Of a stretch of DNA of 64,000 nt, positions 1,499-14,385 are shown one piece after another. Every line of letters starts with the position of its first letter. The stretch's first letter is position 1. The translations under genes were made by a program, and so were the position numbers. The DNA lies in NCBI GenBank assembly GCA_025655455.1, contig JAHXIV010000051.1, forward strand, positions 1-64,000. The letters run 5' to 3'. The notes beneath the pieces were generated by a model. That model saw only the letters and a program-made list of their open reading frames with translations, ran no database searches and was not told where the DNA came from. Source of the stretch: a gamma proteobacterium symbiont of Taylorina sp. (GTDB taxonomy: Bacteria; Pseudomonadota; Gammaproteobacteria; GRL18).

Positions 1499-3376
1499 TT
1501 ATATTTTTATCCCAATAACCGTCACATCATCATTGGTTTCCTCATCTTTCTGGTATCGTTGCAATTCATAAAGCAGTAATTCCTGTTGATCAGCAAATGT
1601 TTCACCTGCATTTTCAATGATAAATTGAGTAAAACGTTTCTTGCCATAAGGGAAGCCTTTTTCACCGCCATTTTGATCAAGATAACCATCGGTAGTCATA
1701 TAAATTTGTGTGGAAGAACTCACATCAATAGTGTGATCGGTAAACACATAGCTGGCATCTGATTTTTTATAACCAATAGAATGTCTATTGCCTTTAATGG
1801 TTTTTAATTCACTATTTTGAATCATAAATAATGGCGTATTCGCTCCGGCAAAGCGAAGGATTTTTTCTTTTTTATTATAGTAAAGAATACCCCCGTCAAA
1901 TCCGGCATTCGAGATAGAATCAACATTTTCCTGTTGCAGAAGGTTTTTAATACTTCTATTAAAAACACTCAACATGTTTGCCGGACTAATCGTTTTGTCC
2001 TTATGAAGATTGGCAGTGAGTTGCCGCTCGATTGCTTTAACCAGCATGGTGACAAAGGCACCAGGCACACCGTGACCGGTACAATCGATAACCATAATAA
2101 TTACTTCATCTTCACTCATTTCTTCTACCAGATAAATATCTCCACCGACAATATCTTTCGGGTGCCAGATGGCAAAATAATCCTGAAAAAACTTTTGAAA
2201 AACTTTATTATCCGGAACTAATGCCCCCTGAATCAGTGCTGCATATTTTATAGAATCACGGGTCTGTTTATGGATTTCCTTGATCTCAAGCTGCTGCTTA
2301 AGCAATAAATTATGGGCATTGATACGCTCAGTAATATCACTGAAAGTCACCACTGAACCAGTAATTTGCTTATCCTTGATAATTGGCTGTGCTTGATATT
2401 CTACTGGAAAATTCGTACCGTCTTTACGCCATAAGACTTCATCATCAATATGACTGACCTTGCCTTCACTAAAAGCATGGTACATTGGACATTGCTCAAC
2501 AGGATAGTGTCTACCATCCGTCCGTGTATGGTGAATGACAGAATGAATTTTTTGCCCTAAAATCTCACTTTCATTATATTGCAGCATCTCCAGAGCCGCA
2601 GGATTGATAAAATTGACCAGACCATCACTACCGACACCAAAAATTCCCTCTCCTGCTGAAGTCAGTAATAGTCGTGATCTTTCTTCTGCAGTTTGTACAA
2701 TTTGTTGTTGATGTTCCAGTTCTTTTGTTCTTTGTTTAACCTTTATTTCAAGACTGCTGCTAAATTTTTTAAGAATTTTAGTAGAGGAAATATTTTTTAA
2801 AATTATACCTATTTGATTAGAGATAATTTCAAAACTAGTTAGATGAGTTTCGGTGATTGTTTCAAAGGTTCCAAGCATTTCTCTGGAATTGTATGCAATA
2901 ATAGCACTTTTATTGATCCCGTTATCATAAAATGCCATCATACCATTTGCATTTTGTAATAATTCACAATTCTTAAATATTTGTTGATTATCAATAAGTC
3001 GTATATATTCACTTTTACTTTGAACAATTTCAAGTATCTTTATTTCAAACAAATCAGAAAAGTCATAAGCTACTTCCCATTGGTTTGAACTAATATAACT
3101 AAGAAAGAGTGCATTTTCACATTGATAAGCTTCAATCAGCGTTTCTATTGTTAATTCATAAACGTCTTTTTCACTATTAAGCTTTAGAGCTTCACCGATA
3201 AACTCCTGGATTGATTTAATTCGTGTATTCTCAATTTCAAGCTGCTTATGAGCCTGGGATAAAACCATATCCGACTTAAGCCGCTTATTCCGCTCATCTT
3301 TAAGGAATTTAAATTCTTTAATGAGCTCATCTTTTGAAAGGTTTTCTAAAATATTTTTTTCATTAGAATAAGCCAT
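1499..3376 (-). CDS. GAF-like/PAS/SpoIIE-type PP2C serine phosphatase
   Basis: This is a soluble signalling phosphatase of 625 residues. It begins with a coiled coil (about 10-50) and a GAF-like region (about 50-200). A second coiled coil leads to a PAS domain (about 225-350, ending ITERINAH) and a C-terminal SpoIIE/PP2C domain (about 375-625). Metal-binding signatures GGDIYLVEE, VIDCTGHGVPGAF and NDDVTVIGI are intact, so it should be active. The family usually dephosphorylates a STAS-domain anti-sigma antagonist, but no such partner lies in the window. It starts 6 bases after the FIST gene upstream on the same strand, which points to one operon with FIST as the sensor. Its PAS-SpoIIE half is nearly the same as that of the 1664-residue receptor at 4870-9864. 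Confidence 0.9.
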   Translation of the reverse strand: MAYSNEKNILENLSKDELIKEFKFLKDERNKRLKSDMVLSQAHKQLEIENTRIKSIQEFIGEALKLNSEKDVYELTIETLIEAYQCENALFLSYISSNQWEVAYDFSDLFEIKILEIVQSKSEYIRLIDNQQIFKNCELLQNANGMMAFYDNGINKSAIIAYNSREMLGTFETITETHLTSFEIISNQIGIILKNISSTKILKKFSSSLEIKVKQRTKELEHQQQIVQTAEERSRLLLTSAGEGIFGVGSDGLVNFINPAALEMLQYNESEILGQKIHSVIHHTRTDGRHYPVEQCPMYHAFSEGKVSHIDDEVLWRKDGTNFPVEYQAQPIIKDKQITGSVVTFSDITERINAHNLLLKQQLEIKEIHKQTRDSIKYAALIQGALVPDNKVFQKFFQDYFAIWHPKDIVGGDIYLVEEMSEDEVIIMVIDCTGHGVPGAFVTMLVKAIERQLTANLHKDKTISPANMLSVFNRSIKNLLQQENVDSISNAGFDGGILYYNKKEKILRFAGANTPLFMIQNSELKTIKGNRHSIGYKKSDASYVFTDHTIDVSSSTQIYMTTDGYLDQNGGEKGFPYGKKRFTQFIIENAGETFADQQELLLYELQRYQKDEETNDDVTVIGIKI

Positions 3377-3382
3377 AATTTA

Positions 3383-4573
3383 TTAGCGCAGAAGGACAGA
3401 AATTGATGTTGTATAGTTATGATAATGATTTTTGCCGTCTAATTGTGCAAACTCACCAAATGCGTACATCCCCAACCATGCAATAGGAAAATCTTTTATA
3501 ATCCCAGTTTGAAGATTATTGGTAATTTCTTCTTTTTTAATAACACCGTTTGACATTCTACCACGAGCCATACAATCTGTTTGAAAAACAGCTACAGGAT
3601 CTTTTTTATCATATTGAACAATTAATCTTTCAATTAAGCCGTTAACACCACTCATTAAGTATTCTTCATCTCTTTGACAGGAGGTTAATTCTGTTCCAAC
3701 AGCAACCCGTGACTGCAATGCCATTGCTTTTCCATCTTCACTTAATATCAATGGTGCTCGAAGTTTATATTTATTATCATAGGCAGATTTTTCTGATTCT
3801 GTTAGATTTGTACCTAAAGCTAATAAAGAAATAACCTCTGTTGGAAGTGTTGATGCAGGAAGATCAAAAGATGCCATCAATGTTGGCCATGCTGGTTTAT
3901 TATCTAATTCACATATAAATTCATTATCTACTTTAGTGGCAATAAATTTTTGATTCTCTTGTGGTAAATAGCCATGGTGAGAAGCTTGGGCAACGGCAAG
4001 TGAGGGGTCAAAAAAACCAACCATCACGATAGCTTGTTCGAGCACTTCTTGATTATAAAATAAAAAAGTATTAGGCACTGAACCATTAAAACCGGCTAAT
4101 CCACCTAAGATAGGGACTTGATGACTAAAAACATCACTAATTCCTTTAGTAATTTCTTCACCATTAACGACTAAGCCAGGTGCAAATGCCATGAGCATAT
4201 TAATGGATAAATTATTGTTTTTTAGTTCCTGTGCAGCTAATTTTGATAATTCATAACAATTATTCTGTGTAACATCTTCTACCTTTGAAAGAACAAATTC
4301 ATGACCTGTCACTAAAGTTAAAGCCACAGCTCTCAGGTTTTCGCTGACATATTCATTGCTGATTACGCCACTTCCTGTACAACCAATGATAGATGCATTT
4401 GGTAAATTTTCTTGAATTGAAACTAATAATTGATTTAGATTATGGCCTGATGTGCTATGGAGAATAACAAGCGTTACTTCCTCATTAGTTTTGCTTTTTG
4501 CAATATTAATAGATTCTTTAATTGCTTTCTTTGGGTTAACAGATTTACTACTGCCAGAATAAAAATTTAACAT
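3383..4573 (-). CDS. FIST-domain sensory protein
   Basis: The 396 residues match the FIST N plus FIST C architecture. The N-terminal half contains the typical stretch SIIGCTGSGVIS and the later glycine-rich LGGLAGFNG. The C-terminal half has the SVAVGTEL-like and FQTDCMARG-like segments, the latter common in FIST C. FIST proteins are thought to bind small ligands, possibly amino acids, and are often coded beside signalling proteins. There is no signal peptide or membrane segment, so it is cytoplasmic. It precedes the PAS-SpoIIE phosphatase by only 6 bases, so the two are very likely co-transcribed and may form a ligand-controlled phosphatase pair. The family call is strong; the ligand is unknown. 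Confidence 0.85.
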   Translation of the reverse strand: MLNFYSGSSKSVNPKKAIKESINIAKSKTNEEVTLVILHSTSGHNLNQLLVSIQENLPNASIIGCTGSGVISNEYVSENLRAVALTLVTGHEFVLSKVEDVTQNNCYELSKLAAQELKNNNLSINMLMAFAPGLVVNGEEITKGISDVFSHQVPILGGLAGFNGSVPNTFLFYNQEVLEQAIVMVGFFDPSLAVAQASHHGYLPQENQKFIATKVDNEFICELDNKPAWPTLMASFDLPASTLPTEVISLLALGTNLTESEKSAYDNKYKLRAPLILSEDGKAMALQSRVAVGTELTSCQRDEEYLMSGVNGLIERLIVQYDKKDPVAVFQTDCMARGRMSNGVIKKEEITNNLQTGIIKDFPIAWLGMYAFGEFAQLDGKNHYHNYTTSISVLLR

Positions 4574-4869: not shown

Positions 4870-7800
4870 TTATATATTTAAGCCTATTACCGTCACATCA
4901 TCATTGCGTTCCTCACCGTTTTCATACTTTTGTAATTCATAAAGCAAGAGTTCTTGCTGATCAGCAAATGTTTCACCCGCATTTTCAAGAATAAATTGAG
5001 TAAAACGTTTCTTGCCATACGGGAAACCTTTTTCACCGCCATTTTGATCAATATAACCATCTGTGGTGATATAAACTTGTGTGGGAGAACTCACATCAAT
5101 AGTATGTTCGGTAAACTTATAGTCGGCATCTGATTTTTTATAACCAATGGAATGTCTATTGCTTTTAATGGTTATTAATTCACTATTTTGAATCACAAAT
5201 AATGGCGTATTCGCTCCTGCAAAGCGAATGATTTTTTCTTTTTTATTATAGTAAAGGATGCCCCCGTCAAACCCGGCATTGGAGATAGAATCAATATTAT
5301 CCTGTTGCAGAAGGTGTTTAATACTTTTATTAAAAATACTCAACATGTTTGCCGGACTGATCGTTTTGTCCTTGTGAATATTAGCGGTGAGTTGACGCTC
5401 GACTGCTTTAACCAGCATGGTTACAAATGCACCAGGTACACCGTGACCAGTGCAATCGATGACCATAATTATTACTTCATTTTCACTCACTTCTTCAACA
5501 AGATAAATATCTCCGCCAACAATATCTTTAGGGTGCCAGATGGCAAAAAAATCCTGGAAAAACTTTTGAAAAACGGTACTATCCGGAACTAATGCCCCCT
5601 GAATCAGAGCCGCATATTTTATAGAATCACGAGTTTGTTTATGGATCTCCCGGATTTCAAGCTGCTGCTTAAGCAATAAATCATGGGCATTGATACGCTC
5701 AGTAATATCACTGAAAGTAACCACTGAACCAGCAACTTGCCCTTCTTTAATCACTGGGCGTGCTTTATATTCAACATGAAAACTACTGCCATCTTTTCGC
5801 CACAGCACTTCATTATCAATCCGGCTAATTTTACCTTGAGTGAGTGCATGATGCATGGGGCATTCTTCTACAGGATAATGACTGCCATCGGCATGAGAAT
5901 GATGAATAATTGCGTGTATCTTTTGCCCTAAGATTTCTGCCTGCTGGTATTGCAGCATTTCCAATGCCGCAGGATTAATAAAGTTAACTAATCCATTACT
6001 GCCAACACCAAAAATACCTTCTCCTACAGAGGTCAGCAACAGCCGTGTTTTTTCTTCGGCTGTTTGTGTGATCGCGGCTTGTTCATTAATCTGAACTATG
6101 AGTTCCTGTTGTTTTCTATCTGCAACCTTACTGATTCTAAGTTGTCGTTTAAGTTCTTTTTCATTATCTTGAAGTACTGCTTTCATAGCAAAGAATTCTT
6201 TATTCATCTGGCCTAATTCATCATCATAAAATAATTTTTGTTTAATTTTTTTATTGCCTGATTTAAACGCCTGAATGCTGCTGATTAAAAAATGTAACGG
6301 CTCTCTAATCTTTTTGATTAACATCAAATAAATGAGATAATTTCCCAGGATAAATAAAACACTGGCGAACAGAATCGTTTGATAAACATTACTAATATTT
6401 CTTTCTATTAATTTTATTTTCAGCTCACTACGTTCATTAATACTACTTAGGAAAATATCAAGAGGATACATAATTTTAAATTTAGCTTTATCATAGTCAC
6501 TGGAATGCAGCAATTTAATCGCCAAGGCTTGATTATTCTCCTGCATAGCCTTAAATGCCCTGACTTCAAGATTCACTAAATCATTAGAGTTACCTTCTGA
6601 TTGCTTTAATAAATCAAATTCTTCATCTGAAAAATGTTCTCTCTGTATTAATTCTTTTAGTGGGACTTTTTCAGTGTCAGGGTGCAGTTTCTTTCTGATT
6701 TTTTTGTCTAAATCCCAGTAAATGCCCTGATAATTTTCAGGTCTTGCTGTTGTTCCATTTCTAATGGCTAAAATATCGAGATAATTTTGTTTATACTCCT
6801 GATTATTGGTTACTACATAGCTTTTTGCATAATGGCTTAAATCATCGGAACTTTGTCTCAGGATGTCGGCAACTTTAAGCATTTCATGTTCATCTTCATG
6901 CACATGTGTCAGTGATTTTTCCAGCTTGTCCATGTTCAATAATTCATAGAGAATAAAGCTGATCATTAAAAATTCGAAGCCTACAATCACAAGAATAAAA
7001 CGGTTAAAATTAATATTTAAAAATCGTGATTGACTATAATTCTGATATAAGAAATAAGCGAATAATACAGCAACAAAAGCGGCGAGCAACATTTCTTCCA
7101 GCGCAAATAATTCAAAAACAGAAAGTTCATTAATTTGTTCACCCAACTGACTATAATCCAGCTGTATTGACAAGGCTTCTTCATTTTTAGCCCATTTCTT
7201 ATATATTTCATTCAGCTTTTCACTACCGATAGTACTAATTGTTTTGTTAATAATTGAAAGTACTTCCGGCGGCCAGTCATTACGCACTGCAATATGTAAA
7301 TTGAGTTGATAATCTGTGTTATAGCTTATTTTCAGATTTTTATAGTGCGCTTTATTGATATAGTATTTAGCAGTCACAGAATTGACTAAAAAAACATCAA
7401 TTTCTTTTGATAAGAGTTTATTAAAACCTTCATTGGTCCCCTTGAGTAAAGTCAGAGGTACATTGGGATTATTTTTTTTCATAATTCCGTGAATGGTATA
7501 ATTACCCACCACGGCTATTTTTTTAGTAGATTGTTCATTATTAAACAATTCAAAGCCATCAGCAAAACTTTCTCCCTGTCTACTGACAAAGACATAGGGT
7601 GTTGAAAAAAGTGTTTTCTCAGAAAAATTCATATAACTTTGTCTTTCTTCTGTTATACCAACAGCACTATACATATCTGCTTGCCGATTTTTTGTAAACC
7701 CGGTTGCCTGCTCCCATGATTCTGTTTTGGTATAAATCAGGTTTAAACCACTTTTAGTCTTTATGAGCCTTAATATATCTGAAATAAATCCTGCATGTTG

Positions 7801-9864
7801 CCCTACATCATTAGTCCATTCAAAAGGTGCCCAATCCTGATTATAGACATATCGAATCGGTTTTGTTTCATCTATCCAGGCTTGTTCTTTCTTACTAAAG
7901 TTAAGGCTGTCATTACCAGAGAGCCATCGATTAACAATGGCACTTTTTTCTTCTCTGGAAATAGCCTCCAGGCCTTTTTGTAATATGGAATGTAAAATAG
8001 GGTGATCTAATCGACTCAGAAAATGTAACTTATTACCTTCAAGTGAAAATTGTGGTACTCCTTTTAAATCAAACACACCTTTTTCCTGAAAAAAATATTC
8101 TGAAGAAATCGGGGTATCCAGTAAAGCATCAACTTCACCACTCAATACCATTTTTACAGATTTTTCAAAACTGGCTGTCTCAACAATGTTAATATTCGGA
8201 AACATTTCTCTAACAAAAGGGATTGTTGCAAATCCTTTGACAATGGCTAAGGACTTATGTGACAGATCTTCAAATGAATGAATATCAAAGTTGCTGTTTT
8301 TGATATAAATATTTTCTCGAACTGTAAAGTATGATTCACTAAAGTAACCAAATTCTATTCTGTCTTTGCTATAATAAGCATCAGGTAAGAGATCAATTTT
8401 TTTATTTTTAAATCCATTGAGCAGCTCATCCCAGGTACCACTGACAAGTGCTACATTTAAGCCCGTTTTTTTAATCACTAAATTTAATATATCAGCAGAA
8501 AACCCTTTAGCTTTATTATCTTCAAAATAAATAATGGGTGCCCATGGTTCAATACCTACTTTAACTGTATTAGAATGAATCCAGGATTTTTCTTCAGGAT
8601 TCAGGTCGGCTTTTTTATCAGCTGAATTAATGTCATCAACCCATGATAAAGTAATTTTATGTCTTTCTTTTTCCGTTATGCTATCCAGTCCTTTTTGTAT
8701 AATTGACTTTAGCAGTGGTTCGTCAATCCTTGAAAAGAAATGCAGGCCAGGTGCTTTAAAGCTGGTTTGTGCGATACCTTTTAAACCGGAAATCAATTCT
8801 TCATTGATTTTCTTTTTAACAGCAACTTGTCCTTCATATAAAGCATCAACGGAACCATTTAAAACCCGATTGATTGAATCATCTAAGTCTTTTGTATAAA
8901 CCAATTGTATGCCGGGAAATTTTTCTTTAATTTTATCTATGGTGCCATATCCTTCAACAATCGCTAATTTCCCGGGTTGTTGGGAATTATCCAGATCGCT
9001 CATAGAGTGAATATTGTTATTATCTTCTTTTACATAAAGATAATCTTTCATTTTAAAATAGTCTGTGGAGTACAATCCGTACTTTGCTCTTTCATTGGTA
9101 TAATAAGTGGCAGGAAGAATATCTATTTTTTTATCTTTAAAGTCAGTTAATAAGATATTCCAACGTTCATTGATTATTTTTGTTTTTAAACCGGTCAGTT
9201 TAATAATTTTTTTTAAAACATCACCTGCAATACCATCAATATCAGAACCATTATTTGAAAAAACCACTGGATCCCATTGCTCAACCCCGACTTTAATCGT
9301 ATGTGCTGCAATCCAGTTTTTTTCCTCATGTGTTAAGTCTATACGCTGTTTACTTGCATAATATAGCGTGACTTGTCCTATCAATTCTTCATCATATTTA
9401 ATGCTGGCATTAAAATGTTCATATGCTTTTATACTTTCAGGAATTTTATTATTGTAAATTTTTTTATCTGTTAAACGATAAAAGCTAATTAGTGTTTCAT
9501 TACCAATAGTATCAATGATTTCTATTGCTTTAATCGTATTATTTTCTTCCATTAAAGGTTGCAAAATACGAATCAACTGGTCTGTATCCAGGTTATAGAC
9601 GGGAAAACTTGTGATGACAGCAATTGTTTGCGCAAATTGTTGTCCAGGGTGTACTAATTCTGGATTTTGTTTTGAAGAAGCAAAAACAGCAGTTGACATC
9701 ATGCAGAGAAAAGACAAAATAATCAGCGGAAAACTTATAGGTCTATAATTTAGATATTTCAAAGCCCTGCCGTTCAGATCAAATTGATTGAATAAAAAAC
9801 TCTCCAAAGCTATCATTACAAAGTTGAAATAAAATTTCACATTAAAAAGAGCTCTTTCAATCAA
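4870..9864 (-). CDS. Receptor phosphatase: three tandem SBP_bac_3 domains, helical sensor, PAS, SpoIIE
   Basis: This is a 1664-residue transmembrane sensor. After an N-terminal hydrophobic segment (about 45-63) come three bacterial solute-binding family 3 domains at about 185-410, 425-655 and 660-900. Each is introduced by an EEK.W-like or KEQAW linker and a VG(V/I)E.W.P-like first strand. Two membrane segments (about 917-940 and 955-977), a helical periplasmic region (978-1150), a third membrane segment (1160-1183) and a HAMP-like stretch follow. PAS (about 1275-1395) and SpoIIE phosphatase (about 1410-1664) complete it, with intact GGDIYLVEE, DCTGHGVPGAF and DDVTVIG motifs. Such SBP domains bind amino acids or similar small solutes. 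The start is uncertain: position 9864 is a TTG without a clear ribosome-binding site, an ATG lies at 9816, and a TTG near 9762 would give a normal-length signal peptide. Confidence 0.88.
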   Translation of the reverse strand: MIERALFNVKFYFNFVMIALESFLFNQFDLNGRALKYLNYRPISFPLIILSFLCMMSTAVFASSKQNPELVHPGQQFAQTIAVITSFPVYNLDTDQLIRILQPLMEENNTIKAIEIIDTIGNETLISFYRLTDKKIYNNKIPESIKAYEHFNASIKYDEELIGQVTLYYASKQRIDLTHEEKNWIAAHTIKVGVEQWDPVVFSNNGSDIDGIAGDVLKKIIKLTGLKTKIINERWNILLTDFKDKKIDILPATYYTNERAKYGLYSTDYFKMKDYLYVKEDNNNIHSMSDLDNSQQPGKLAIVEGYGTIDKIKEKFPGIQLVYTKDLDDSINRVLNGSVDALYEGQVAVKKKINEELISGLKGIAQTSFKAPGLHFFSRIDEPLLKSIIQKGLDSITEKERHKITLSWVDDINSADKKADLNPEEKSWIHSNTVKVGIEPWAPIIYFEDNKAKGFSADILNLVIKKTGLNVALVSGTWDELLNGFKNKKIDLLPDAYYSKDRIEFGYFSESYFTVRENIYIKNSNFDIHSFEDLSHKSLAIVKGFATIPFVREMFPNINIVETASFEKSVKMVLSGEVDALLDTPISSEYFFQEKGVFDLKGVPQFSLEGNKLHFLSRLDHPILHSILQKGLEAISREEKSAIVNRWLSGNDSLNFSKKEQAWIDETKPIRYVYNQDWAPFEWTNDVGQHAGFISDILRLIKTKSGLNLIYTKTESWEQATGFTKNRQADMYSAVGITEERQSYMNFSEKTLFSTPYVFVSRQGESFADGFELFNNEQSTKKIAVVGNYTIHGIMKKNNPNVPLTLLKGTNEGFNKLLSKEIDVFLVNSVTAKYYINKAHYKNLKISYNTDYQLNLHIAVRNDWPPEVLSIINKTISTIGSEKLNEIYKKWAKNEEALSIQLDYSQLGEQINELSVFELFALEEMLLAAFVAVLFAYFLYQNYSQSRFLNINFNRFILVIVGFEFLMISFILYELLNMDKLEKSLTHVHEDEHEMLKVADILRQSSDDLSHYAKSYVVTNNQEYKQNYLDILAIRNGTTARPENYQGIYWDLDKKIRKKLHPDTEKVPLKELIQREHFSDEEFDLLKQSEGNSNDLVNLEVRAFKAMQENNQALAIKLLHSSDYDKAKFKIMYPLDIFLSSINERSELKIKLIERNISNVYQTILFASVLFILGNYLIYLMLIKKIREPLHFLISSIQAFKSGNKKIKQKLFYDDELGQMNKEFFAMKAVLQDNEKELKRQLRISKVADRKQQELIVQINEQAAITQTAEEKTRLLLTSVGEGIFGVGSNGLVNFINPAALEMLQYQQAEILGQKIHAIIHHSHADGSHYPVEECPMHHALTQGKISRIDNEVLWRKDGSSFHVEYKARPVIKEGQVAGSVVTFSDITERINAHDLLLKQQLEIREIHKQTRDSIKYAALIQGALVPDSTVFQKFFQDFFAIWHPKDIVGGDIYLVEEVSENEVIIMVIDCTGHGVPGAFVTMLVKAVERQLTANIHKDKTISPANMLSIFNKSIKHLLQQDNIDSISNAGFDGGILYYNKKEKIIRFAGANTPLFVIQNSELITIKSNRHSIGYKKSDADYKFTEHTIDVSSPTQVYITTDGYIDQNGGEKGFPYGKKRFTQFILENAGETFADQQELLLYELQKYENGEERNDDVTVIGLNI

Positions 9865-9897: not shown

Positions 9898-10063
9898 CTA
9901 GGAGCCTGTCCGAGAATAGAAATTCTACCAAAGAAAACCTGATTTTGGCCATTTTTCTCCATAATTTTCGTTAAATATGCCTATATTCGCCTCAAATTAT
10001 GAAAAAAACTGACTCAAAACAGATTTCCTTTGCTACGGTGTCCATTCTCGGACAGGCTCCTAG
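9898..10063. mobile_element. MITE-like element with 20-bp terminal inverted repeats
   Basis: The element is about 166 bp and has no coding capacity. Its ends are perfect inverted repeats: CTAGGAGCCTGTCCGAGAAT at 9898-9917 and its exact reverse complement at 10044-10063. If the outermost CTAG on each side is the duplicated target, the inverted repeat proper begins GAGCCTGTCC. A diverged relative sits at 20337-20460. It lies between two divergently transcribed signalling genes, so it may affect both promoters. The transposase that moves it is not in the window. Confidence 0.85.
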
Positions 10064-12302: not shown

Positions 12303-13307
12303 ATGAGACTACATAGAAAACCAAACTATTGTAGTGGGGGCAAAGCAACTCTTCTCGTATTATTGATACTATCACTATTATTAATTTCCTGTGATAGCTC
12401 TGACAATATACCAATTCAGCAGGTTGATAGCAGTGATCGTCTCAGTGATAATGATTTGCAGCTTGAAAATAAAAAGATACAATCTCTGCGACAAGAAAAT
12501 AGTAAATTACCTCAACATAATAATTTTTACTTCGGTTTTGATTTGCGAAGTTCACCACAGGAGGATGCAGCACAATACCAACCTTTCTTAAACTATCTTG
12601 AAAGTGCAACTGGTTATCAATTTAAACTCCATTTCACTCCTCTAAATGGTTCTACTGTTGATGATTTGGGTCAAAATAAGACTCAGTTTGCTGCAATGGG
12701 TGCCGATAGTTTTCTCAAAGCTCAGTCGTTATATGGTGCAAAATCTTTAGTTCGTGGTCTTAATCTTCAGGGCAAAGCTGAATACCGATCTTTCTTTATC
12801 GTAAAACCAAATAGCCATATTCTGAGTATTAAGGATATCAAAGGGCATACACTCGCCTTTGGCAATCGTAATTCGACTCAAGGACATCTTATTCCTCGTA
12901 TTATACTTTCAGAAAATGGGATTTCTCTGGATGATTTAAGTAGTTATAGCTATACAGGATCGCATCAAAATTGTGCAGAATCGGTCGTCTCTGGTCAATC
13001 AGATGTCTGTGGTTTACAGGATAAACTGGCAAAAAATCTGGTCACACAGGGTATTGTCAATATTATACACAGTTCACATTATTATCCCTCCAGCGGTATC
13101 GTAGTAAACCAATTTGTGCCTGCTGATGTCATTGCTAAAGTTAAGCAAGCATTAATTGATTTCAAACCTCAGGGTGAACATCATACTGGTTTGTACCATT
13201 GGGATAAAACAGAGATGCCCAATGGTTTTATTGCAGCTAAAGAAAGTGATTATACTGAGTTACGCCAGTGGTCTATCCGGCTTGGATTTTTGGAGAAAGT
13301 CCATTAG
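12303..13307 (+). CDS. PhnD-like periplasmic solute-binding lipoprotein
   Basis: The 334-residue product has a lipoprotein signal ending LLLISCDSS, with the lipidated cysteine at about residue 30. A PhnD/phosphonate-type binding fold starts at about 75. The segments FGFDLRSSPQEDAAQYQPFL, FAAMGADSFLKA and LAFGNRNSTQGHL are typical of this superfamily. No ABC permease or ATPase lies nearby. Instead a membrane sensor gene follows after 10 bases, so this protein more likely feeds a ligand signal to that sensor than to a transporter. The actual ligand cannot be read from the sequence. Confidence 0.8.
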   Translation: MRLHRKPNYCSGGKATLLVLLILSLLLISCDSSDNIPIQQVDSSDRLSDNDLQLENKKIQSLRQENSKLPQHNNFYFGFDLRSSPQEDAAQYQPFLNYLESATGYQFKLHFTPLNGSTVDDLGQNKTQFAAMGADSFLKAQSLYGAKSLVRGLNLQGKAEYRSFFIVKPNSHILSIKDIKGHTLAFGNRNSTQGHLIPRIILSENGISLDDLSSYSYTGSHQNCAESVVSGQSDVCGLQDKLAKNLVTQGIVNIIHSSHYYPSSGIVVNQFVPADVIAKVKQALIDFKPQGEHHTGLYHWDKTEMPNGFIAAKESDYTELRQWSIRLGFLEKVH

Positions 13308-13317
13308 TGGAGCAACA

Positions 13318-14385
13318 ATGATGACAATTTCTAATCGTATTTTTTTATTAATACTCATAACGACATCACTGAGCACCCTGGCAAATTTTATACTCACGCA
13401 ACATCAAAGCATGAGCTTGCATCATGATTCAGAAAAAATCCTGGCTCGCACACTTGTTCGATCATTACGTGATGCCTTGATACAAGATGTTATCAATGAT
13501 AATCAACTGCGAATCACTAACTTACTAAAAAGTTTAAAAAGCCACGATAATCCCATCGAATATCTTTATATCACTAAAGGTATACATAATACCGTTTTTG
13601 CACACTCTTTTGAAAAGGGTATTCCACGTTTTCTTGTCCATTCCAATAATCCTGCTATCAAACAGTCAGGCGTCCATCTGGTGCATAAATATCAGACAGA
13701 ACATGGCCTTATTTATGATTATAGTGAGACATTACTCACAGGATTAGATGCCAGTTTGCATATCGGGATCAACCAGACAAAAATTATAGAACAGCTGAAA
13801 AAAAACAATCAATATATACTAACTATCAGTATTATTATATTATTATCTGCCCTCTTGATCGCTTTTTTATTAGGCCGGCAAGTATCAAAACCATTAACTC
13901 AGTTTGTTCATCAAATTAAGCTCTATGGTCAGGGAAATATAATAAAATTAAATAAATTAAAAAATACGTCACCAGAAATCAAACAACTCACTACAGCCTT
14001 TCAATGTGCAATAGTTGAACGCCAACAGGCTGAGAGTTCTTTAAAAAGTAGTGAAGCCAGATTGAGAGGACTTCTTAATACCTTACCTGATCTGGTCTGG
14101 CTTAAAGATAAAAATGGTATTTTTCTTTCCTGCAATGCTAAATTTGGAACATTCTATGGAGCAAAAGAAGTCAATATTATTGGCAAAACTGATTATGACT
14201 TTGTCTCTAAAGACATAGCTGATGTTTTTAGAAAAAATGATAAGGCGGCTGAAGCATTAGGACAGCCAAGAACCAATGAAGAACAGTTAACTTATGCAAG
14301 TGATGGGCATAAGGAATGGGTTGAAACAATTAAAGCCCCAATGTATGAACTCAATGGTGACTATATTGGTGTATTGGGTATCTGA
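13318..14385 (+). CDS. Membrane sensor truncated after its PAS domain
   Basis: The product is 355 residues long from the ATG at 13318, which has GGAG just upstream; the open frame extends further back into the preceding gene. It has a membrane segment (about 7-25), a periplasmic part, a second membrane segment (about 160-182), a HAMP-like linker and a PAS domain (about 240-355). The PAS domain closely resembles those at 48052-50478 and 26144-29251. Those continue GIGRDIT and then an output domain, but this one stops right at YIGVLGI. No kinase, GGDEF or other output follows in any frame, so the 3' part seems deleted. It may be a dead receptor or act through a partner. It follows the PhnD-like gene in one operon. 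Confidence 0.78.
   Translation: MMTISNRIFLLILITTSLSTLANFILTQHQSMSLHHDSEKILARTLVRSLRDALIQDVINDNQLRITNLLKSLKSHDNPIEYLYITKGIHNTVFAHSFEKGIPRFLVHSNNPAIKQSGVHLVHKYQTEHGLIYDYSETLLTGLDASLHIGINQTKIIEQLKKNNQYILTISIIILLSALLIAFLLGRQVSKPLTQFVHQIKLYGQGNIIKLNKLKNTSPEIKQLTTAFQCAIVERQQAESSLKSSEARLRGLLNTLPDLVWLKDKNGIFLSCNAKFGTFYGAKEVNIIGKTDYDFVSKDIADVFRKNDKAAEALGQPRTNEEQLTYASDGHKEWVETIKAPMYELNGDYIGVLGI

Follow-up and report, generated by a model that had tools for sequence, protein, structure and literature searches.

A probable BvgS/EvgS-like flytrap receptor with a SiaA-type phosphatase output in a gamma proteobacterium symbiont of Taylorina sp.

SiaA controls a biofilm switch in Pseudomonas, and SiaC corresponds to DUF1987. 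In the SiaABC system, residue T68 of SiaC is phosphorylated by SiaB and dephosphorylated by SiaA, and unphosphorylated SiaC, which has a STAS-like fold, binds the stalk of SiaD and thereby activates it (PMC7647112, PMC8457831). SiaD binds SiaC through a motif around R74-D91 (PMC8457831). The SiaA loop with E609, G611, F612 and R618 has been proposed to contact SiaC or to shape the contact, while R652 contacts or holds the phosphate in a published simulation (PMC7647112). The literature found on SiaC-type switches describes them in P. aeruginosa and names no extracellular ligand-binding domain on the phosphatase. BvgS, known together with EvgS for tandem periplasmic Venus-flytrap (VFT) domains, has its output switched by VFT1 closure or by nicotinate binding at VFT2 (PMC4352136).

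The window analyzed here is a stretch of 64,000 nucleotides from the symbiont (contig JAHXIV010000051.1, positions 1 to 64,000), and it contains a gene that combines parts of both systems. A close paralogue of this gene has a dN/dS of about 0.04-0.14 where dS could be estimated, indicating purifying selection, and the open reading frame is therefore taken as a real gene that encodes an intact receptor phosphatase. Translation probably starts at the TTG at nucleotide 9762 (residue 35), a choice suggested by the resulting signal peptide and by a weak purine-rich stretch. The receptor gene and its neighbors are composed of the following features:

4870..9864, minus strand: whole open reading frame, 1664 codons counted from TTG
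9679..9762, minus strand: predicted signal peptide or N-terminal hydrophobic segment, residues 35-62, hydropathy peak 43-61
9310..9675, minus strand: N-terminal periplasmic domain, residues 64-185, alignable with front ends elsewhere
8641..9306, minus strand: SBP_bac_3 domain 1, residues 187-408 (Pfam and PDB sequence match)
7915..8571, minus strand: SBP_bac_3 domain 2, residues 432-650, BvgS VFT2-like (Pfam and PDB sequence match)
7189..7860, minus strand: SBP_bac_3 domain 3, residues 669-892 (Pfam), by sequence nearest the RmcA PBP domain 7EJG
6319..7119, minus strand: membrane module from hydropathy, with TM1 (916-938), TM2 (953-975), helical sensor (976-1160) and TM3 (1164-1182)
6157..6315, minus strand: HAMP-like segment, residues 1184-1236, recognized by sequence pattern without a Pfam match
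5689..6063, minus strand: PAS domain, residues 1268-1392 (Pfam)
4873..5676, minus strand: SiaA-type PP2C phosphatase domain, residues 1397-1664 (NCBIfam, 6K4E sequence and fold match, tree)
5002..5067, minus strand: TTDGYIDQNGGEKGFPYGKKRF, metal-binding Asp-Gly and putative SiaC-contact loop (alignment to SiaA)
3383..4573, minus strand: FIST-domain protein, 6 bp from the gene of the 625-aa phosphatase
1499..3376, minus strand: second SiaA-type PAS-phosphatase, 625 aa, its phosphatase 88% identical to that of the receptor

The 625-aa phosphatase has no membrane segment predicted by hydropathy, and the FIST-domain protein resembles NosP weakly, scoring 63 bits where the cut-off is 450. Three other features of the window were recorded. 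Between the receptor gene and a divergent GGDEF gene lies a 166-bp palindromic element (9898-10063) with 81-nt arms that looks like a MITE from its sequence; allowing up to one mismatch, the genome has 16 copies of its terminus AGGAGCCTGTCCGAGAAT and 0 of a reversed control. AAA_14 and DUF4143 parts sit on two separate same-strand open reading frames at 155-1396, which may be one broken gene, and a phosphonate-binding reading frame overlaps a PAS reading frame in a different frame at 12303-14385, possibly a frameshift within one receptor gene.

The receptor is composed, in order, of a signal peptide, an N-terminal domain, SBP1-SBP2-SBP3, TM1, TM2, a helical periplasmic module, TM3, a HAMP-like segment, PAS, and PP2C. 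Pfam matches were all above cut-offs, with E-values of 3.5e-51 for SBP_bac_3 in three separate stretches, 1e-12 for PAS_9/PAS, and 2e-17 for SpoIIE. The three tandem SBP_bac_3 domains named in a preliminary description of this DNA are thus borne out, each of them matching solved binding domains, and so is the statement that they differ: searched alone against solved structures, domain 1 is nearest to EvgS (1e-13), domain 2 to BvgS (2e-19), and domain 3 to the RmcA PBP domain (7EJG, 4e-18). Hydropathy peaks at 43-61 (signal), 916-934, 957-975, and 1164-1182, together with a helical predicted model (mostly at pLDDT of about 70-87 in this module), agree with the helical module placed earlier behind a second membrane pair. 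Its motifs (LRQSSDDL...IRNG...IYWDL) are kept in the loci L064, L119, and Vibrio L108, with the C-terminal part also in L102, and the module is a candidate for a second input. The N-terminal domain of some 120 residues (about 64-185) was absent from the earlier domain description. A Pfam scan of residues ~64-185 gave no match, while the predicted model has a helix-helix-hairpin-helix-hairpin order at a pLDDT of about 30-44, so that a Cache/PAS-like nature is possible with low confidence; alignable front ends were found in the paralogue L064:14118-17324 and in the related loci L117 and L102.

The flytrap region shares with BvgS and EvgS the arrangement of tandem periplasmic Venus-flytrap domains followed by membrane and PAS, and these two proteins rank first among its fold matches and near the top by sequence. 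The predicted model of residues 64-912 matched BvgS first and then EvgS. A separate fold list, filled mainly by SBP2 and uninformative on other parts, gave Z 27 for SBP domain 2 against BvgS VFT2. The differences are that the receptor has three flytraps rather than two, possesses an extra membrane pair with the helical module, and carries a serine phosphatase (SpoIIE/PP2C) in place of the histidine kinase output. Tandem SBP_bac_3 domains are likewise shared with SBP-array kinase and GGDEF receptors, from which it differs in the output domain. The same genome encodes such arrays in kinases of 2291, 2259, and 1202 aa and in a 1234-aa GGDEF protein; the 2291-aa protein (L068:3137-10012) is a hybrid histidine kinase with six SBP_bac_3 domains, and the other arrays comprise kinases at L069 and L071 and the GGDEF protein at L070.

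The phosphatase output is, as judged by alignment, profile, and tree, SiaA-type and not of the classical RsbU/SpoIIE sigma-factor type. The NCBIfam SiaA model (NF038263) matched with 223 bits over model positions 398-655; as this is the C-terminal part only and lies under the full-length equivalog cut-off of 700 bits, the name used here is SiaA-type phosphatase domain and not SiaA. The sole PDB sequence match of the PP2C domain at E<=0.001 was the SiaA PP2C domain 6K4E (E=1.4e-44), which also headed the fold matches of a moderate-quality predicted model (residues 896-1664, mean pLDDT 66.5, weak in PAS and parts of PP2C, and used for fold matching only). In the 6K4E alignment, the metal-site residues D457, D474, G477, D600, G601, D604, and D653 of SiaA are kept, as are the loop residues E609, G611, F612, and R618, where GEKGFPYGKKRF of the receptor aligns to GEHGFGFGSRRF. 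The R652 position is Asn in the receptor and in aligned clade relatives. The PAS and Pfam SpoIIE/PP2C assignment of the earlier PAS-SpoIIE phosphatase therefore stands with a changed subtype, and the expected partner becomes SiaC and not an RsbV-type anti-sigma antagonist; a STAS anti-sigma antagonist had earlier been suggested as something to look for. In comparison with P. aeruginosa SiaA (PMC7647112, 6K4E), the receptor has in common the PP2C metal-binding residues and SiaC-contact loop, a membrane anchor, a HAMP-like linker, and siaB/siaC beside sibling genes. Published descriptions of SiaA give it two membrane segments and HAMP, while the receptor adds three flytraps, the N-terminal domain, PAS, and a membrane segment pair with the helical module; the SiaC phosphosite is Ser and not Thr, and the receptor gene is an orphan.

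The symbiont genome (4.5 Mb, 104 contigs) was found to have three SiaC genes, on contigs C1, C7, and C48, four matches to SiaB, including one fragment, and nine SiaA-type phosphatases above 200 bits, five of which carry SBP_bac_3 domains. The residue equivalent to T68 is Ser in all three SiaC proteins and in the aligned Sulfurimonas and Vibrio loci, and Thr in L113 and L114. One siaB and one siaC are clustered at 71-87 kb of contig C1 with a short siaA and SBP-phosphatases, all on one strand with short gaps. This cluster begins with an SBP protein and two receptor phosphatases, 2-SBP-PAS-PP2C (1068 aa) and NMT1-SBP-PAS-PAS-PP2C (1142 aa), continues with a hemerythrin-like protein (so named from its sequence), SiaB, SiaC, and the short SiaA, and ends with an NMT1-3xSBP-PAS-PAS-PP2C protein (1915 aa) followed by a partial response-regulator-like protein. 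Among the paralogues, the receptor is closest to the 1915-aa protein, with 61% identity over the SBP1-HAMP region and 81% over PAS-PP2C. Profile matches around the receptor gene and genome-wide revealed no siaB or siaC beside it, and any action of this copy on SiaC would therefore have to be in trans.

Relatives were identified in several other bacteria by a contig scan with narrow patterns, which gave 18 loci and is not a census. In the symbiont's own genus, a 2-SBP phosphatase directly precedes siaB and siaC (L117); in its family, two SBP domains, PP2C, and SiaB are fused in one protein (L119:3736-7584), and there is also a PP2C-SiaB fusion (L116:3699-5258). Similarly, SBP-PP2C proteins followed by siaB and siaC were found in Campylobacterota (L102 and L104, Sulfurimonas), and a Vibrio locus (L108) has a phosphonate-binding-type domain with the same helical module and PP2C, then siaB-siaC. 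The architecture is patchy and, as had been supposed, uncommon: 8 of 274 genomes in the class sample, the symbiont included, have this phosphatase type at E<=1e-60, the other seven have one copy each, and in none of these seven was the phosphatase found in a frame >800 aa. In the family sample, the phosphatase is present in 4 of 24 genomes. It is no one-off, given five SBP-SiaA proteins in the symbiont alone and relatives in other genomes. Literature searches, which fell short of most subscription papers, found no paper on SBP-PP2C fusions. Known parts, a BvgS-like flytrap input and a SiaA-type output, are thus wired together here in a new and uncommon way.

We consider it probable that the protein is a BvgS/EvgS-like transmembrane flytrap receptor phosphatase by which signals from the periplasm reach a SiaA/SiaB/SiaC partner switch. 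Small molecules or other cues in the periplasm would shift the conformation of the three flytrap domains, and perhaps of the N-terminal domain, much as happens in BvgS and EvgS. From there the signal would travel across TM1/TM2, the helical module, and TM3, and then along the HAMP-like segment and PAS into PP2C, which may be dimeric by analogy with SiaA. The phosphatase would set the rate at which phosphate is removed from the conserved Ser of SiaC (Thr68 in P. aeruginosa), opposing the kinase SiaB, and SiaC, once dephosphorylated, would activate an effector by binding its helical stalk; in P. aeruginosa the effector is a diguanylate cyclase. The orphan copy would reach one of the genome's three SiaC proteins in trans, the C1 SiaC being the likeliest; the sign of the response, the ligands, and the effector are likewise matters of inference. 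Direct observations comprise the domain content, the conservation of catalytic residues and contact loop, the presence of SiaB and SiaC genes in the genome, and the sibling links. Of these, the links that tie sibling receptors to SiaB/SiaC by gene cluster or fusion lend the strongest support. The reading is weakest in the isolated position of this copy, the R652N change, the ligands, and the effector; against it also count that the link of the receptor gene to siaB/siaC runs through paralogues, that 223 of 700 bits were reached, and that no clear stalked SiaD was found.

The effector below SiaC is where the nearest alternative arises. In this alternative the receptor also acts on SiaC, with the output being a histidine-kinase or phosphodiesterase pathway, and not a diguanylate cyclase, through proteins that carry the stalk. 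Directly behind the siaC of contig C7 lies a 719-aa HATPase/CheX protein (L065:748-2907; C7:131.7-133.9 kb) with an N-terminal SiaC-docking-like stalk KIIKISDIQQDEL (78 bits), and the same stalk occurs in proteins behind siaC at the relatives' loci L075 and L079. On contig C16 (L137:283-6427), the genes behind a SiaB gene encode an HD-domain protein, two response-regulator proteins, and a hybrid kinase; stalk-like N termini are present in the first and the last of these (the kinase match being weak, 17 bits), and no siaC was seen on this stretch. A stalked GGDEF protein, or a clear SiaD with a SiaC-binding stalk, was not found in the genome, which leaves the c-di-GMP end of the pathway uncertain. 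However, the role of the stalk is predicted by a sequence model built from seven sequences, including both of the strong matches later found in the genome (the C7 HATPase/CheX protein and the C1 short SiaA), and given this composition the informative part is that no third strong match appeared. Moreover, the C1 cluster, the clearest partner, has its sole strong stalk on the short SiaA itself, and a SiaD/GGDEF model gave 76 matches in the 4.5-Mb genome, most of them (about 70) GGDEF domains, among which a short-motif search may miss divergent stalks. The kinase or phosphodiesterase output is accordingly a possibility that we rate somewhat below even.

Held with similar reserve is a wider proposal, that the set of flytrap-receptor phosphatases may converge on a SiaC hub that adds up periplasmic signals, with some receptors clustered with one kinase and one SiaC, and with effectors other than a diguanylate cyclase (the HATPase/CheX kinase, the HD-domain protein, and the hybrid kinase) reached via the shared stalk motif. 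Three further stalk or SiaD candidates were set aside: the GGDEF protein beside the C1 cluster consists of a PAS-like segment and GGDEF with no stalk motif seen; at C16:66546 the motif is absent from a long coiled-coil GGDEF protein; and a SiaC-docking stalk inside the receptor (RISKVADRKQQEL, near residue 1243) is not kept in the paralogue, chance matches being similar.

A lobe-2 Asp is typical of HisJ/LAO-type amino-acid binders. All three SBP domains of the receptor retain the lobe-1 Arg, in the motifs TNER, SKDR, and TEER (R259, R502, and R741 by motif position), while the lobe-2 Asp position is occupied by Gly, Thr, and Asn; in printed alignments it is Thr in BvgS and EvgS and Asp in 7EJG. 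As the Asp is missing in all three domains, amino-acid ligands are not to be assumed, and the amino acids suggested earlier as candidate ligands appear doubtful from these residues. The same absence would suit a second alternative, in which the flytraps form a fixed scaffold without ligand binding and the inputs come from the helical module, PAS, or a partner protein. The active state of BvgS indeed has a closed, unliganded VFT2 (PMC4352136), and in some relatives the phosphatase lacks SBP domains. This scaffold is nevertheless unlikely, considering the retained lobe-1 Arg, the low dN/dS of the SBP domains (0.12-0.14), and the different types and numbers of binding domains among sibling receptors (NMT1, phosphonate-type, SBP_bac_3), which are expected if ligand choice matters.

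The genome also has a separate RsbU-like response-regulator phosphatase, on contig C80, that adjoins a HATPase protein and a STAS-containing protein. Although this set is present, Pfam names the receptor's domain SpoIIE, and SiaC is itself STAS-like in fold (PMC7647112, PMC8457831), it is very improbable that the receptor works as a classical phosphatase of the RsbU/SpoIIE kind, releasing a sigma factor by dephosphorylating an RsbV-type anti-sigma antagonist, since the SiaA model gives the C80 protein 79 bits against 217 for the receptor phosphatase, the C80 protein is on a very long branch of the tree (long branches making its exact position unsure), the PDB sequence search gave SiaA alone, and the SBP-phosphatase relatives adjoin SiaB/SiaC genes in the examined loci. 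The neighbors of the receptor gene are FIST, PAS-PP2C, and GGDEF genes, RsbV/RsbW-type linkage being absent. What the receptor has in common with RsbU/SpoIIE is the PP2C fold and chemistry and the partner-switch logic, while it belongs to another PP2C subfamily with SiaC, not an RsbV-type STAS protein, as the expected partner.

For the SiaA-type receptor, the catalytic tail has a closest relative different from that of the sensory part: the PP2C tail is nearest to the neighboring 625-aa phosphatase (88%), and the SBP part to the 1915-aa protein of the C1 cluster. In most receptor pairs, synonymous differences per site are about 0.14-0.5 over much of the PP2C tail, against about 0.5-0.9 in PAS. 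This lower divergence fits gene conversion among catalytic tails or a constraint on synonymous sites, and it would be compatible with, though no proof of, a single substrate common to several receptors.

Binding-protein domains are thus joined to a SiaA-type phosphatase in two phyla, varying in number and type while the phosphatase tail stays alike. This makes it testable how extracellular small molecules set a serine/threonine partner switch, and it suggests that the SiaC switch can serve several effectors.
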